DNA from: an uncultured Clostridia bacterium | GTDB lineage: Bacteria; Bacillota; Clostridia; Oscillospirales; Ruminococcaceae | Direction of reading: 5' to 3' | Assembly (NCBI GenBank): GCA_947629335.1 | Contig: CANRDI010000001.1 | Coordinates: 186,001-250,000 of the forward strand | Length of the DNA stretch: 64,000 bases | In this document: positions 526 to 13,169 of the stretch, one piece after another | How positions within the stretch are numbered: position 1 is the first letter of the stretch | Layout of the letters: each line of letters begins with the position of its first letter | Notes under the pieces: model-generated | What the model was told of the DNA's origin: nothing | Databases searched by the model: none | The model's input: only the letters and a program-made list of their open reading frames with translations | Translations under genes and position numbers: made by a program

Positions 526-1380
526 ATGAATATTGCTGTTGTGGGCTTGGGTCTTATAGGCGGGTCTATTTGTAAAGCTCTTAAAGCCAACACGTTTCAC
601 CATATTATGGGCATTGATTCCGACAAGGAAACTGTAAGAAAAGCGCTTGAGGCAGGTGCAATCGACGAGGAAATAAGCGTTGAGAAGCTTGGCGAGGCTA
701 ACCTTACGGTGATTGCTCTCTATCCGTTTTCAATAGTAAAGTTCGTTAAGGAAAATGCGGACAAGTTTAAAAAAGGTTCTATTGTTATGGATATCTGCGG
801 CGTGAAGGGTTATATTGTAAATAACTGCACGCCTGTTCTTGAAGAAAAGGGAGTTGTCTTCATCGGAACTCACCCTATGGCGGGAACGGAACATTCGGGT
901 TTTGATTATTCAAGTGCTGATTTGTTCAGTAAAGCAAGTTTTATCATTACGCCTACCGAGAATACTCCGCAGATCGCAGTAGATCTGGTTTCGACGCTCG
1001 GAGCATGTATGAATTTCGGACAGGTGGTTATTGCCACTCCCGAACAGCATGACAGGAATATTGCATATACTTCACAGCTTGCGCACGTTGTTTCAAATGC
1101 TTATGTAAAAAGTCCTTCTCTGCTAAAAGCGGACGGTTTTTCAGCGGGCAGCTTTCTTGATTTGACAAGAGTAGCATACCTTAACGAGGAAATGTGGTCA
1201 GGGCTTTTTATGTGCAATAAAGAGGCGCTTTTGTTTGAGATGAATAATATTATTCGCTCTCTTACGGAATACCGTGACGCTATGGTAAATGATGATATTG
1301 ACACATTACGGGAGCTTCTCAAAGACGGAAGAATCCTGAAAGAAAAAAGTATGGATTTTTACGGACAGGGGCGCAAATAG
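526..1380 (+). CDS. tyrA: Prephenate dehydrogenase
   Basis: 284 residues, typical of a TyrA without an ACT or chorismate mutase domain. The N-terminus carries the dinucleotide-binding fingerprint GLGLIGG (residues 7-13), and GTHPMAGTEHSG in the middle matches the prephenate-binding region of the family. The enzyme oxidatively decarboxylates prephenate to 4-hydroxyphenylpyruvate for tyrosine synthesis in the cytoplasm. The ATG at 526 follows GGGAG at a good distance. It stands apart from the aroB-aroA-aroC cluster at 41.7-45.4 kb, which supplies its precursor chorismate. Arogenate as alternative substrate cannot be excluded from sequence. Confidence 0.92.
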   Translation: MNIAVVGLGLIGGSICKALKANTFHHIMGIDSDKETVRKALEAGAIDEEISVEKLGEANLTVIALYPFSIVKFVKENADKFKKGSIVMDICGVKGYIVNNCTPVLEEKGVVFIGTHPMAGTEHSGFDYSSADLFSKASFIITPTENTPQIAVDLVSTLGACMNFGQVVIATPEQHDRNIAYTSQLAHVVSNAYVKSPSLLKADGFSAGSFLDLTRVAYLNEEMWSGLFMCNKEALLFEMNNIIRSLTEYRDAMVNDDIDTLRELLKDGRILKEKSMDFYGQGRK

Positions 1381-5886: not shown

Positions 5887-5943
5887 GCAAAAAAACTGTA
5901 TTAGGCTATGGCTGTCAGAACGTTAATGAAAAGAGGTAGTATA

Positions 5944-6621
5944 ATGTATAAAATTCTTGTTGTAGATGATGAAGAGCATATCCGCGAGGTGCTTAAAGAA
6001 TACGCCGAGTTTGAAGGTCACGAGGTCGATGAGGCTGTAGACGGTATGCAGGCTATAGAAATGGCAAAAGCAAAGGACTATGATATTATAATTATGGACG
6101 TGATGATGCCGAGACTTGACGGTTATTCTGCCTGCAAGGAGATAAGAAAGTATAAACAAACGCCGATGATGATGCTTTCGGCGCGCGGTGAAGAATATGA
6201 TAAACTGTTTGGATTTGAGATCGGTATAGACGATTATGTAGTAAAACCGTTTTCTCCAAAAGAAGTTATGGCGAGAATAAACGCGATAGTAAAGCGCAAT
6301 TCAACCGCCTCTGCACAAGTTTCCACATCCGACACGGAAAAGTTTGAGGGACTTGAAATAAACTTTGTTTCAAGAAACGTCTATATAGACGGTGAAAAGG
6401 CAAATCTGACGCCAAAGGAATATGACCTTTTGTTTTATCTGGTAAGAAATAAAAACATAGCGCTTACGAGAAACAAGCTTCTTGAAGAGGTTTGGGGATA
6501 TGACTTTTTCGGCGACGATAGAACTATCGACACACATATTAAAATGCTTAGAAATAATTTAGGTCCTTACAGAAAATTTATAGTGACTTTACGCGGTTTG
6601 GGTTATAAATTCGAGGTTTAA
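5944..6621 (+). CDS. OmpR/PhoB-family response regulator
   Basis: 225 residues from the ATG at 5944 (AAGAGGT upstream); an upstream in-frame ATG at 5908 lacks a ribosome site. The receiver domain (1-120) has the acidic pair DDEEH, the phosphoacceptor D52 in MDVMMPRLDG, and a conserved VKPF lysine. The C-terminal half is a winged-helix DNA-binding domain ending TLRGLGYKFEV, the usual OmpR-family close. The partner kinase begins 1 bp after its stop. No local target operon can be named. Confidence 0.93.
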   Translation: MYKILVVDDEEHIREVLKEYAEFEGHEVDEAVDGMQAIEMAKAKDYDIIIMDVMMPRLDGYSACKEIRKYKQTPMMMLSARGEEYDKLFGFEIGIDDYVVKPFSPKEVMARINAIVKRNSTASAQVSTSDTEKFEGLEINFVSRNVYIDGEKANLTPKEYDLLFYLVRNKNIALTRNKLLEEVWGYDFFGDDRTIDTHIKMLRNNLGPYRKFIVTLRGLGYKFEV

Positions 6622-6622
6622 G

Positions 6623-8116
6623 ATGAATTTTTTCCGTAGCATAAAAGTACGCGTCTGGGCAAGGTTTGAGATAATAGTACTTGCGATGCTTGTATTTACT
6701 TATATTTTTCTTATCGCTATGTTTCCTAAGTTTTATGAATGGATGAAAACATATGAAATAAGCGAAGCGTTTATTGAGATAAGTTCCAACTGGAGCAGTG
6801 ATGACGAAACATATATAAGTACCTCTATGCGGGATATTATTGTTAAACAGGCGTCCGACAAGAGAATGTTTATAGAGATAATTTATCCAAATGAGAGAAC
6901 TTATATCATAAACAGACTTGGCGGAAAGCTTTCGTACGAATTGCTTTCAAAAACCGATTTTATAAAAAGCGTTAAAAATTCAGAGTCGGGAATTATTTAT
7001 AAAACATTTCGTGATGAACAGGAAAATAATTTTGTCCTTATGATGGGAAGCTATATAGGTGGAGATAAAAACTCTCCTAACGCCTATATTTTTATATTCA
7101 ATTATCTCCAGCCGATAGGCACAACCGTTCAGATATTCACAAGCCAGTTTTTCATCGTCGGGCTTTTAATTATGATACTGACGATCTTTATATCGGCGTT
7201 TTTTTCAAACAAGATCTCAGGTCCTATTATCAGAATAAATAATTCAGCGAAAAGCTTATCGCAAGGAAAATTTGACGCAAAGATAGGAAAACGGGATTAT
7301 ATGGAGATAAAACAGCTCGCGGGAACATTGTCCGAGGCGTCAAAGGAAATTGCGAAATCCGACGATCTGCGGCGCGAGCTTATGTCGAATATTTCTCACG
7401 ACCTCAGAACTCCGCTCACTATGATAAAGGCTTATGCGGAGATGATAAGAGATATTTCCGGAGATAATCCCGAAAAAAGGGAAAAACATCTTAAAGTAAT
7501 CATAGACGAAACAGACCGACTTTCATCGCTCGTAACGGATATACTTGACCTTTCAAAACTTCAGGCGGGCGTTGCAAAGCTGAATATTGAGGAGTTCAAT
7601 TTATCCGAGAACGTTTCGGGCGTTGTTTCAAGGTTTGAAGTTATCAGATATAATGAGGGTATAACCGTTGATTTGCAGGCGGAGGAGAATATCTTCATAT
7701 CTGCCGATATATCAAAGATAGACCAGGTAGTTTATAATTTGATAAACAATGCCGTCACTTACGTCGGCGAGGATAAAACGGTTTTCGTAAGACTTTTCCG
7801 AAAGGAAAACGGAATTGTTCGCTTTGAAGTTGAAGACCACGGGGAGGGTATCTCTCCCGAAAACCTGCCGTATATCTGGGACAGATATTACAAAGTAAGC
7901 GAGCGCTCTGCTACTCATAAGCGCGCGAAAATGGGAAGCGGAATAGGTCTTTCGATAGTAAAGAGCGTACTTGAACAGCATGGGTTCAAATACGGAGCGG
8001 AGAGCAGTCTCGGAAAGGGAAGCAAGTTCTGGTTTGAAGCTCCGGAATACTCCGAAGATTTGCCCGAAGAACCAAAAAAGCACAAGCATGAGATGAAAAT
8101 TACAAAAAAGCAATAA
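6623..8116 (+). CDS. Membrane sensor histidine kinase
   Basis: 497 residues. One membrane helix near 15-36, an extracytoplasmic sensor of about 140 residues, and a second helix near 175-197 are followed by a HAMP linker. The dimerisation helix carries the phosphoacceptor H259 in SHDLRTPLTMIKAY, followed by an ATPase domain with N-box NLINNAVTYVG, a DHGEGI G1 box and GSGIGLSIVKSV. This is a classical HisKA kinase in the orthodox order and is certainly the partner of the preceding regulator. The signal is unknown. The lysine-rich tail and a downstream gap of 90 bp lead to the sigma-factor fragment. Confidence 0.93.
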   Translation: MNFFRSIKVRVWARFEIIVLAMLVFTYIFLIAMFPKFYEWMKTYEISEAFIEISSNWSSDDETYISTSMRDIIVKQASDKRMFIEIIYPNERTYIINRLGGKLSYELLSKTDFIKSVKNSESGIIYKTFRDEQENNFVLMMGSYIGGDKNSPNAYIFIFNYLQPIGTTVQIFTSQFFIVGLLIMILTIFISAFFSNKISGPIIRINNSAKSLSQGKFDAKIGKRDYMEIKQLAGTLSEASKEIAKSDDLRRELMSNISHDLRTPLTMIKAYAEMIRDISGDNPEKREKHLKVIIDETDRLSSLVTDILDLSKLQAGVAKLNIEEFNLSENVSGVVSRFEVIRYNEGITVDLQAEENIFISADISKIDQVVYNLINNAVTYVGEDKTVFVRLFRKENGIVRFEVEDHGEGISPENLPYIWDRYYKVSERSATHKRAKMGSGIGLSIVKSVLEQHGFKYGAESSLGKGSKFWFEAPEYSEDLPEEPKKHKHEMKITKKQ

Positions 8117-8205
8117 TGATAAAAACGGGCAGGACTTGCCCATTTTTGAATATTAAACAAGCGAAGAAGAATAGAATAGACCAAAAACGACGAAAGGAAC
8201 ACACT

Positions 8206-8571
8206 ATGATTTGGTTGATCTTAAAACTTGCGCTTGAAAATTTTTTGTTTTTCGGACTTCATTTCGACGGAAAAAACAACTTTCCAAAACAACTTTCTGC
8301 AAAGGAAGAACAACGATGTCTGGAAAAAATTTCAAACTTAGAATGTACTGAGCATGAAAGAAAAGAAGCCCGCGATAAGATAATTGTTCATAATTTAAGG
8401 CTCGTCGCATATATCGTAAACAAAAAATATCCCGATTTTGCCGACACCGACGATCTTGTTTCGATAGGAACGATAGGACTTATTCGCGCTGCGGAAACCT
8501 TTGACCCCGCTAAAAACAACAAATTCTCCACTTATGCTTCCAGATGTATTGATAATGCAATAGCACACTGA
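8206..8571 (+). CDS. sigK: N-terminal half of a sigma-K-type sporulation sigma factor (split or truncated)
   Basis: 121 residues from the ATG at 8206 (AAAGGA 9 bp upstream). A hydrophobic pro-sequence-like start is followed by FPKQLS, the HNLRLVAYIV region and DLVSIGTIGLIRAAETF. It then ends ASRCIDNAIAH and stop. This is region 1.2/2 of SigK (less likely SigE); regions 3 and 4 are missing. The break falls at the codons aligned with RCIENEI, where the Bacillus subtilis skin element interrupts sigK between spoIVCB and spoIIIC, as I recall it. A strong terminator follows 38 bp later. No C-terminal half is present anywhere in the window. It could be half of a sigK rebuilt by recombination, or a decayed gene. 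Confidence 0.8.
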   Translation: MIWLILKLALENFLFFGLHFDGKNNFPKQLSAKEEQRCLEKISNLECTEHERKEARDKIIVHNLRLVAYIVNKKYPDFADTDDLVSIGTIGLIRAAETFDPAKNNKFSTYASRCIDNAIAH

Positions 8572-8608
8572 CGGAAAAATATTATGAGACTGTTTATAAT
8601 GACATATG

Positions 8609-8650
8609 ATTGCGCCGACGACAGCGGATAATCGTCGGCGCAATTTTTTG
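8609..8650 (+). terminator. Strong terminator after the sigma-K fragment
   Basis: A perfect 13-bp stem (ATTGCGCCGACGA with its complement, 8609-8644) and a 10-base loop are followed by TTTTTT on the plus strand. The T-run orientation assigns it to the sigma-factor fragment, not to bioB on the other strand. Confidence 0.85.
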
Positions 8651-8689: not shown

Positions 8690-9643
8690 TCACACTCTGT
8701 AGCCAAGCTCCGATATGATCTTCATATCATTTTCTATCGTAATGCCGCTTGTTGTAAGCATATCACCCGAAATAGCGGCGTTTGCTCCCGAAACGAAAAG
8801 CGATTTTCCCATATCGCTCATAAGTCCGCGTCCTCCTGCAAGCCTTATCTGCGCGTCGGGAATTATAAATCTGAATATTGCAACAATTCTTTTCATATCA
8901 TCTTCTGAAAGGACCTTGTTGTTTTGAAAAGGCGTGTTTAAAATCGGGTTTAACATATTTACGGGAACTGATTTAACGCCAAGCTCTCTCAAACTAAACG
9001 CCAAATCAATTCTGTCCTCCATTGTTTCGCCAAGTCCCATTATACCGCCGCTGCATACTTCAAGTCCCGCACTTTTTGCAGCGTTTACAGCTTTTATCTT
9101 GTCGTCATAAGTGTGAGTTGTACAGATTTTCGGGAAGAACCTGCGCGATGTTTCAAGATTGTTATGTATTCGTGCGACCCCTGCCTCTTTCAGTTTTCGG
9201 TAATTCTGCTCGTCAAGCAATCCTCCCGAAACGCATATCGAGATAGGACAGGCTTTTTTTATTTCGACAATGCTTTCACATAAATTTTCGACTTCAATAT
9301 CTGAAAGTTTTTTTCCCGAACAGACGATCGAATATCTATGCACACCGCGTTTATAATTATATAATGCTTGTTTAACAAGTTCTTCCTTTCCGAGCAGGGG
9401 ATATTCTTCGCATTTTCCGCCGAAATGAGCAGATTGCGCGCAGAATTTGCAGTTTTCAGAACAGCGCCCGCTCTTGCCGTTAATTATGGTGCAAATATCG
9501 AAAGCATTATTGCAGAATTTCCGCCTTATTTCGTCCGCCGCTTGGCACAGTTCTTCAAGAGGCGCTGTTATAAGCTCCATAGCGTCATTTTGCGTTATAG
9601 AGTAACCGTTTAATACTTTGTTTTTAAGTTCATTTATGTTCAA
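8690..9643 (-). CDS. bioB: Biotin synthase
   Basis: About 317 residues. It has the radical-SAM motif CSENCKFC near residue 61, and later regions (NNLETSRRFFP, VNMLNPILNTP, RLAGGRG) diagnostic of BioB. It inserts sulfur into dethiobiotin using a 4Fe-4S and a 2Fe-2S cluster. I favour the TTG at 9643, because the GTG at 9652 lies inside the AAGGTG ribosome site formed by the end of bioY. It is last in birA-bioY-bioB. No bioA, bioD or bioF is in the window, so dethiobiotin may be imported or made elsewhere. Confidence 0.95.
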   Translation of the reverse strand: MNINELKNKVLNGYSITQNDAMELITAPLEELCQAADEIRRKFCNNAFDICTIINGKSGRCSENCKFCAQSAHFGGKCEEYPLLGKEELVKQALYNYKRGVHRYSIVCSGKKLSDIEVENLCESIVEIKKACPISICVSGGLLDEQNYRKLKEAGVARIHNNLETSRRFFPKICTTHTYDDKIKAVNAAKSAGLEVCSGGIMGLGETMEDRIDLAFSLRELGVKSVPVNMLNPILNTPFQNNKVLSEDDMKRIVAIFRFIIPDAQIRLAGGRGLMSDMGKSLFVSGANAAISGDMLTTSGITIENDMKIISELGYRV

Positions 9644-9644
9644 T

Positions 9645-10205
9645 TTATTCACCTTGATATTTTCTCACAATAGGTATCAGTCGCTTTGAAATAAATACAG
9701 CGATAATGCTTAACGCCAGGTCTTTTGGAAAAAGAAGTATGAAACAGTAAAGCAGACAGTCCTTTACGCTTATCCCGCCTTCACCTACCCACAGGTTTGA
9801 CGCAGCATAAAAATACACAACTCCAATAGCGTAGATTATTAAAATGCCCACAATATCCGCCAAAAACAAACGCTTTAACGAGGAATTTGCATTCGCTATC
9901 TTTCCCATAACGTATGCGCCGATAATAAATCCTATCAGATAGCCGAAAGTAGGTTTCAGCACATAGAAAAATCCTCCGCCCTCAGTAAATATCGGTATGC
10001 CTATCAGTCCGAGCAGAACATAGACCCCGACGCTTGCCGCTGAGTATTTTCCTCCAAGAAGCATTGCCGCAAGCACAATGAAAAAAACTTGCAGCGTTAC
10101 ACTTATGTAGGGAATGGGAATTTTTATAAACGCGCCTGCCGCTATAAGCGCGGAAAATAATGCGCACATACATATCATAACTGTCCTATTTTTTGCTTTT
10201 GTCAT
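9645..10205 (-). CDS. bioY: BioY family biotin transporter S-component
   Basis: 186 residues with about six membrane helices. The KIPIPYISVTLQVFFIVLAA stretch near residues 28-47 is the BioY signature, and FKPTFGYLIGF-like residues follow near 85-95. It binds biotin (or dethiobiotin) at the membrane and may work alone or with a shared ECF module, none of which is encoded here. The start ATG has AAGGAG. It lies 5 bp after birA and its stop overlaps the ribosome site of bioB, so the three genes form one operon. Confidence 0.93.
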   Translation of the reverse strand: MTKAKNRTVMICMCALFSALIAAGAFIKIPIPYISVTLQVFFIVLAAMLLGGKYSAASVGVYVLLGLIGIPIFTEGGGFFYVLKPTFGYLIGFIIGAYVMGKIANANSSLKRLFLADIVGILIIYAIGVVYFYAASNLWVGEGGISVKDCLLYCFILLFPKDLALSIIAVFISKRLIPIVRKYQGE

Positions 10206-10210
10206 AATTT

Positions 10211-11185
10211 TTATCTCCTTATGCTGATCTCTCCTGAGTACACAATGCTCTCTTCTCCGTTTTCATAACGGACTTTAAGCGCACAGTTGTCGTCTGTTCC
10301 GATAAGAACAGCGGGCGTTTTGATTTTTCCGTCTGCTCCGCTGAGAATATAGATTTTTTCACCCTGCCACATGAGCCGCTTTCTGTATTCATTCATATAG
10401 TTACATTCAGGAAGTTTAAGGTACAGTTCCATAAAATTATCGTATAACTCAGCCGCCAGTTTGTTTCTTATATTTGCCGATCGTTTTTTCATAAGCGCTC
10501 CCGCAGTGTCTGCGATTTCCTTCGGAAAACCGTTCTGTGGTGTATAAACATTTATTCCTATGCCCGTCACGATATAATCGAGCATACTGTTTTCAAAATT
10601 AAGAGCCGCTTCGGTTGAAATTCCCGCGACCTTTTTACCGTTGTAATAAATATCATTTACCCATTTTATTTCGGCATAAGCGCCTAAAACCTTTTCGATA
10701 GCCGTACTTGCTGCCACGGCAACCGCCGCAGTTATAATGACGGCTTCTTTTGCGGTAAAATTCGGACGAAGCAGAATACTCATATAAAGCCCCGTATCGG
10801 CAGGCGAGAAAAAACTTCTTCCGCGTCTGCCATAGCCGTTTGTCTGCGCTGACGAAACGACAAGCGTTCCTTCTTTTGCTCCGTTTTGAGCCATTTCCCG
10901 CAGATATGTATTTGTAGAGCCTATTGTTTTAAGCACGACAATATTTTCACATCTTCCTCTAAGATTTCGTCTTATGCCCGCTTCGCTCAGAAAATCGCCT
11001 TTTTCTTCAAAACAATAGCCTTTGTTTGTAACTGCCGAGATTTGAAATCCTTCGTTTCTTAGAGCGTTTATTGCCTTCCATACCGCTCCGCGCGTACAGT
11101 ATATCTTTTTTGCTATATACTCTCCCGAAATATATTCTCCCGGATATTCTTCAAAAAGATTTTGGACTTGTTCTTTGATGGTCAA
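10211..11185 (-). CDS. birA: Bifunctional biotin operon repressor / biotin-protein ligase
   Basis: 324 residues from a TTG start with AAGAGGT upstream. Residues 1-65 form a winged helix (YCTRGAVWKAINALRNEGFQI), so this is the regulatory type. The ligase domain shows GSTNTYL, the biotinyl-AMP loop region GYGRRGRSFFSP, and KWVNDIYYNGKKVAGI. It attaches biotin to carboxylase carriers and, as biotinyl-AMP complex, represses. Its own operator and promoter lie directly upstream, so autoregulation of birA-bioY-bioB is expected. Confidence 0.95.
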   Translation of the reverse strand: MTIKEQVQNLFEEYPGEYISGEYIAKKIYCTRGAVWKAINALRNEGFQISAVTNKGYCFEEKGDFLSEAGIRRNLRGRCENIVVLKTIGSTNTYLREMAQNGAKEGTLVVSSAQTNGYGRRGRSFFSPADTGLYMSILLRPNFTAKEAVIITAAVAVAASTAIEKVLGAYAEIKWVNDIYYNGKKVAGISTEAALNFENSMLDYIVTGIGINVYTPQNGFPKEIADTAGALMKKRSANIRNKLAAELYDNFMELYLKLPECNYMNEYRKRLMWQGEKIYILSGADGKIKTPAVLIGTDDNCALKVRYENGEESIVYSGEISIRR

Positions 11186-12905: not shown

Positions 12906-12983
12906 ATAAATGCTCCTTTCGTTAATTTTTCGTAATTTTGTACAAGACAGCTTTCATAATATATTTTGAAAGGGGTTGACCGT

Positions 12984-13169
12984 ATGTCACGAAAGCACGA
13001 TAAAATTGATGTACTGATACATATTCCCGACAATTATTCCTGGCAGAGCTTAACGGAAGAAACAAATAAACTTTATGTTTATTCGGTAAAGAAATACTTG
13101 GATAATTCCGATTTAGGTCCTGATGAAAAAAAAGAGATTATAAAAACACTTATTTCAAAATTCGGATGA
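12984..13169 (+). CDS. Small hypothetical protein divergent from the recombinase
   Basis: 61 residues starting at the ATG 8 bp after AAAGGGG; an upstream in-frame ATG at 12966 lies before the ribosome site. The protein is charged, with DVLIHIPDNYSW near the N-terminus and a helical C-terminus (GPDEKKEIIKTL). I do not recognise it. Its position, divergently transcribed from a large serine recombinase, is where small recombination directionality factors or regulators can sit, but nothing in the sequence proves that. Confidence 0.6.
   Translation: MSRKHDKIDVLIHIPDNYSWQSLTEETNKLYVYSVKKYLDNSDLGPDEKKEIIKTLISKFG

Follow-up and report, generated by a model that had tools for sequence, protein, structure and literature searches.

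Introduction

In the skin elements of B. subtilis (SpoIVCA) and C. difficile (CD1231 with CD1234), a split sigK gene is combined with a large serine recombinase and with inverted-repeat arms, and the reading frame is restored at the joint. The element separates the 5′ from the 3′ half and leaves as a circle, and sigK stays on the chromosome. The skins of the two species sit at different sites; that of C. difficile is excised as a circular molecule, and its small protein CD1234 is the recombination directionality factor (PMC5025042). Other developmental genes are likewise rebuilt by excision, many of them with serine recombinases, as described in the accessible parts of reports on the SP-beta/spsM, gin/gerE and yin/yabG elements and on the heterocyst interruption elements (PMC4191935, PMC4874684, PMC5595907, PMC10747680). 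These gene-intervening and heterocyst elements remove an inserted element, and none of the cases described in those parts excises a gene together with core chromosome.

Here we analyse a stretch of 64,000 nucleotides, the window, which is C1:186001–250000 of a 2.48-Mb genome in 50 contigs (G000). An earlier note, made from the letters of this stretch, had proposed that sigK is split at an attL-like junction within it. The site, the recombinase and the joint are indeed of the skin kind, but the element does not lie between the halves, so that the locus is a variant, most likely a skin-type split turned inside out (an “inside-out skin”). Compared with the known skins its halves are reversed, and the circle would carry sigK and core genes.

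Results

The 5′ half of sigK ends within the window

The sigK frame of the window starts at the ATG that follows GAAAGGA (8206), the mechanical ORF start being 8116, and it terminates with ...CTTCCAGATGTATTGATAATGCAATAGCACACTGA, that is RCIDNAIAH*, where the last native codon before the joint is GAT (8551–8553). Its product matches the SigK models TIGR02846 (positions 2–113 of 227, E 4.2e-28) and NF004471 (positions 5–115 of 235, E 1.2e-29) over only the first half of their length and, as expected for half a protein, scores below the whole-protein cut-offs of both; sigma region 2 is present and region 4 is absent. These matches bear out the earlier description of the gene as the pro-sequence and region 1-2 of a SigK-like factor, and the sequence does end two residues after RCIDNAI, as described. 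In B. subtilis, skin interrupts sigK at the corresponding codon.

The sigma-E-like promoter before the 5′ half agrees with the consensus at 13 of 15 letters, a score attained by 0.5% of 2324 background stretches; the corresponding promoter has 12–13 of 15 letters in seven of the eight species compared and 10 in G003. Behind the 5′ half, a hairpin followed by T6 was read by eye; with its loop of 10 it was not listed by the terminator scan, whose loop limit was 8. The stop codon and this immediate terminator had been regarded as marks of the junction. The hairpin is present, but none was seen by eye directly after the junction in the other seven species for which the junction was printed, and it is therefore not part of the junction.

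Table 1. Features of the sigK locus (window coordinates unless preceded by C1)
Feature	Position	Strand	Remarks
3′ half of sigK with attR-like site	C1:135461–135857	+	about 50 kb before the window start
Right end of the 59,071-bp segment	1–8553	+	in the window; the left end is the 3′ half with attR-like site
Prephenate dehydrogenase	526–1380	+	right end of segment
Response regulator	5908–6621	+	right end of segment
Sensor kinase	6623–8116	+	right end of segment
Sigma-E-like promoter before 5′ half	8148–8177	+	GAATATT-15-AATAGAAT; 13/15 consensus letters
5′ half of sigK (pro-sequence, regions 1-2)	8206–8571	+	121 codons and stop
attL-like junction	8539–8577	+	sigK side TCCAGATGTATTGAT, crossover AA (8554–8555), attP-type arm TGCAATAGCACACTGACGGAAA (8556–8577)
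Hairpin and T6 after 5′ half	8610–8649	+	TTGCGCCGACGA/TCGTCGGCGCAA; read by eye; loop 10
bioB-, bioY- and birA-like genes	8690–11185	-	between junction and recombinase
Large serine recombinase, 539 aa	11286–12905	-	convergent to 5′ half; Resolvase, Recombinase and zinc ribbon
61-aa ORF	12984–13169	+	divergent from recombinase; candidate recombination directionality factor, from place and size

The 3′ half lies upstream on the same strand

When the whole genome was searched, sigma region 4 matched at ten places, only one of which, C1:135672–135839, on the same strand, has no accompanying region 2. The matches on C1 (at 135672, 321324 and 322211) are all outside C1:186001–250000; the window thus holds no C-terminal half, as had been stated, and the check proposed at the time, a search of the genome for a short ORF with a C-terminal sigma half that joins in frame, leads to C1:135672–135839. 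This ORF begins ...GTGTAATTGCTAACCAGATAAAAATG..., translated NQIKMHFRK..., exactly where the 5′ half stops. The two halves join in frame at AA, which upholds the split sigK with its attL-like junction, and the RCID/NQIKM joint is in frame in all seven species in which both junctions were read. When the genome of the window was queried with the joined protein, three matches were obtained: both halves, and a paralogue at 41%. A further 3′ half close to the recombinase, of which this query gave no sign, is rejected.

Inspection of the stretch ahead of the first ATG in the 3′ half showed no Shine-Dalgarno sequence. Three of the 13 genomes with a detached 5′ half (G002, G003 and G053) yielded no 3′ half, and in G002 its surrounding genes were not found either; two scans of viral contigs for a joined sigK gave no joined copy. 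Both halves are under strong purifying selection, with pairwise dN/dS of 0.02–0.11 wherever computable (nine species for the 5′ half and seven for the 3′ half), saturated pairs (4 of 36 and 2 of 21, respectively) yielding no value.

In the genome of the window, the 3′ half sits 59,071 bp upstream of the 5′ half, measured from AA to AA, and both are on the + strand. The reversed order also occurs on single contigs in G005 (49,312 bp), G010 (48,232 bp) and G007 (47,273 bp). The 3′ half is thus upstream and on the same strand in all four genomes of the split clade that have both halves on one contig; as G005, G010 and G007 are close relatives, these four amount to roughly two independent cases. 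Separate contigs carry the two halves in G006, G013 and G056 (same coordinates as G031), and there the halves have the same neighbours as in the single-contig genomes, namely a sensor kinase before the 5′ half and a MATE gene after the 3′ half. An element between the 5′ and the 3′ half, whose excision would leave sigK on the chromosome, was not found, the order being reversed over 47–59 kb. Three possibilities had been left by the note: a very large element, a rearrangement or a dead gene. The rearrangement is what the 3′ half 59 kb upstream amounts to; a normal large skin element between the halves is rejected, because the 3′ half is upstream and not downstream of the 5′ half, and a dead gene is at odds with the dN/dS values.

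Junction sites

In each of the nine species read, the 5′ half leads into TGTATTGATAAT and from there into an arm, and in seven of seven species an arm ending in GTGTAATTGCTAA precedes the 3′ half. The two arms of the deduced attP are symmetric about AA at 14–20 of 22 positions in all seven species (shuffle means 5.7–6.4). This symmetry best places the crossover at AA (8554–8555), and the core at AATGC that had been proposed is accordingly given up. Since AA is not self-complementary, the sites are directional. attL and attR, with their inverted-repeat arms, are in direct orientation, as in a skin-type element, and from the established mechanism of serine integrases two sites with the same direction are expected to give excision and not inversion. 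DNA folding of the junctions gave no signal (z about 0), and a pattern scan for junction sites, with its strict spacing, missed several known junctions.

The attP-type arm also stands before a second recurring sequence (...AATTGTCGAAATATACAAAAATATGAAC... and alike), at L089 -9421, L091 -8674, L092 -4202, L098 -14553 and L102 +2837 (positions counted along the strand named), which suggests another target of the same system.

Recombinase and neighbouring genes

The three domains of the recombinase all score above cut-off, and its S7, presumably the nucleophile serine, is invariant in eight of eight species. Of the 43 genus genomes surveyed, 13 carry the recombinase (E<1e-150), and these same 13, and no others, have a detached 5′ half; the species of this survey are related and the counts are not independent trials. 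The two features share a contig in 12 of the 13 genomes, the exception being G056, where they are on different contigs and other genes follow the 5′ half. Among the other 30 genomes, sigK is unbroken across the joint in 24, none of which has the recombinase, and no 5′ half was found in six (G004, G008, G043, G047, G050 and G051). The unbroken genes are near full length in 22 cases, including that of G018, cut at residue 217, and are cut earlier by contig ends in G040 and G042. Further MAGs also carry the recombinase beside 5′ halves. Before the recombinase, no sigma-E-like promoter rises above background (11–12 of 15 letters, reached by 20% and 3.5% of background stretches). Of the bioB-, bioY- and birA-like genes that separate recombinase and junction, G006 and G013 have birA alone there and G003 has none of the three.

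A similar divergent ORF of 59–67 aa (likeness judged by eye) lies beside the recombinase in eight of eight species. A family search (PHROGs, Pfam) with the small ORF of the window gave no convincing match. A small directionality factor is known in the C. difficile skin; that the 61-aa ORF is its counterpart here is our guess, made from place and size. The divergent promoter region that separates the recombinase from the small ORF contains TTGTACAA (12938–12945), which is kept in seven of eight species and is possibly an operator. Elsewhere in the genome of the window, contig C2 holds two tandem sigma-70 factors (C2:6033–7895 and 9973–10320), whose open reading frames are of 411 and 401 aa; a serine recombinase follows some 2 kb beyond them.

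The segment between the halves

By family search, the segment also encodes alanine racemase, dihydroxy-acid dehydratase, UMP kinase, ribosome recycling factor, Dxr, an RseP-like protease and PolC; a SpoVT-like gene scores below the cut-off of its model, and inspection adds ispG, his genes and an aldolase ahead of the two-component pair. No tRNA was found in the segment. For polC (queried with a fragment), pyrH, frr and dxr, a single copy each was found in the genome, all within the segment, and the only further match to the four queries is a distant polymerase (32%). These four genes are essential in bacteria in general.

In two genomes with sigK elsewhere, G018 and G034, the SpoVT-like gene, ispG and the kinase are collinear on one contig, and the SpoVT-like gene directly precedes the next segment gene in four of five outgroups (G018, G034, G014 and G001, not G033). 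As the order of this backbone is kept in the outgroups, the segment looks native, with the sigK halves at its two ends.

Canonical, fused and detached copies in relatives

The canonical arrangement is present within the genus. In G033 (L116), the 5′ half, the recombinase, a 1332-aa gene and the 3′ half follow one another within 6.7 kb, and core and arms are of the kind found in the window; in G034 (L117), the 3′ half lies 39 kb downstream of the 5′ half, and the locus is canonical by order only. The canonical-skin recombinase belongs to the same family (60% identity), whereas its position between the halves and the leading 5′ half set both loci apart from that of the window.

In G045 sigK is intact, and its product is 88% identical to the joined protein. 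Its immediate neighbours are the kinase that stands before the 5′ half in other genomes and the MATE gene that stands after the 3′ half there. G045 yielded no recombinase, not even in the 240 bp that separate birA from argF (the latter cut by a contig end), which in G006 and G013 lie on either side of it. In a phylogeny built from 13 concatenated proteins (13 genomes, 5009 columns, missing genes gapped, root chosen at G001, G009, G018 and G034), G045 is sister to G006 and G013 with a support of 100, and these three group with G000 and G031, excluding the G005 group, with a support of 99; G045 is thus nested within the split clade. Most simply read, the split is ancestral and G045 is a fixed product of the expected reaction. 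The genes behind the SpoVT-like gene of G045 differ from those in the split genomes, which would fit a reopening of the circle at that point. This MAG is 89% complete and has further rearrangements at the same spots, so that its sigK fusion could have arisen by another route.

The reversed order is most simply taken as derived. It is doubtful that a circle bearing sigK inserted into an attP between def and argF, because kinase and argF are adjacent in G018, G001 and G009; they are apart in G015, G016, G033 and G034, which makes the objection a weak one. The intact sigK of G001, G014 and G016 is elsewhere, near an nrdD-like gene (by inspection).

Extra detached 3′ halves occur without a detached 5′ half, seven in G016, four in G043, two in G015 and one each in G012, G004 and G018; those of G016 include five in a row on one contig, 8–33 kb apart. 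The loci are L089–L092 (G016 contig C13), L093, L094, L101–L105 and L168–L169. Of the 12 that were read, 11 are preceded by some version of the same attP-type arm and one by a degenerate arm. They look like traces of integrative elements that entered sigK at this site and brought a replacement 3′ half. Between two detached 3′ halves of G016, inspection points to a Wadjet-type defence operon (L089:10615–17127), and such arrays are possibly cargo islands. Several of the detached 3′ halves are faced head-on, by inspection, by a small helix-turn-helix-like gene or what is left of one (L103:6291–6623, with similar ORFs in L091, L092, L098 and L102).

Discussion

We consider it quite probable that sigK is stored inside-out at this locus and rebuilt in the mother cell by attL x attR recombination, with excision of a core circle of 47–59 kb. 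The stored form would be the succession of 3′ half, 59 kb of core chromosome, 5′ half and recombinase. In the mother cell, the serine recombinase would join the attL-like site of the 5′ half with the attR-like site of the 3′ half, perhaps with the small divergent ORF as directionality factor, and two sites of the same direction would split the chromosome into two circles. Because the 3′ half is upstream on the same strand, the small circle would be the segment from the 3′ to the 5′ half, carrying the rebuilt sigK behind its own promoter together with polC, pyrH, frr, dxr and his genes. The large circle, the remaining chromosome, would keep the recombinase and gain a near-palindromic attP. Such a reaction would be lethal in a growing cell and harmless in the mother cell, which dies anyway; its occurrence and its confinement to the mother cell are what we infer from the locus.

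Other readings account for less of the evidence. The split-carrying relatives are uncultured MAGs, and their sigK might be a dead gene, decaying since a past rearrangement, in a lineage for which sigma-K is no longer necessary; given the dN/dS of 0.02–0.11 in both halves and the conservation of promoter, sites and recombinase, this deserves hardly any credence. It is scarcely credible, too, that the assembly is wrong and the true order that of a canonical skin. The contigs are those of MAGs and the canonical order does exist in G033 and, by order only, in G034, but four genomes agree in the reversed order and in the neighbours, and the outgroups G018 and G034 share the backbone that runs from the SpoVT-like gene through ispG to the kinase. 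A two-protein sigma factor, whose halves are made separately and assemble like the SigO and RsoA pair of B. subtilis, would agree with both halves being open and selected. We hold it to be very unlikely in view of the exact codon complementarity at the joint and the lack of a visible ribosome-binding site at the 3′ half, to which are added arms conserved outside the joined frame, the co-occurring recombinase and the differing tails of the 5′ halves.

The same sites and enzyme would also permit a reaction between sister chromosomes, in which attL of one copy recombines with attR of the other to give one chromosome with the 59-kb segment in tandem and an intact sigK in its middle, and another with a deletion. 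A cell about to sporulate has two chromosomes, and the useful product would lose no essential genes. This route is nevertheless unlikely, as the timing in the mother cell, with its one chromosome, favours an intramolecular reaction, and the C. difficile skin leaves as a circular molecule (PMC5025042).

Excision of the core circle, the reading that we prefer, goes further than the restoration of one gene. We lean towards regarding it as a programmed terminal splitting of the chromosome into two circles, after which sigma-K, the master regulator of the final stage of sporulation, would be active only from the small one. Skins are commonly seen as tamed prophages that sit in sigK; at this locus nothing inserted remains between the halves, and the permuted gene order would itself be the switch, at the cost of replication and translation genes lost from the chromosome. 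A search of an accessible set of papers for an inside-out sigK or for an excised circle with essential genes found none, which does not prove absence from print. The scrambled genes of ciliates likewise consist of pieces that are kept in a permuted order until development reassembles them; the likeness is an analogy only, with another mechanism and in another domain of life.

If the proposed reaction takes place, a cell that recombined too early would lose the only copies found of polC, pyrH, frr and dxr and would found no lineage, so that the arrangement would safeguard itself, and G045 would be a lineage in which the product has become fixed. The strong prediction is a circle of 47–59 kb in sporulating cells. 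With a canonical skin, an intact sigK and a re-fused copy, a single genus offers the comparison, and the locus would be a clear case of a bacterial developmental DNA rearrangement that involves the core chromosome rather than a parasite.
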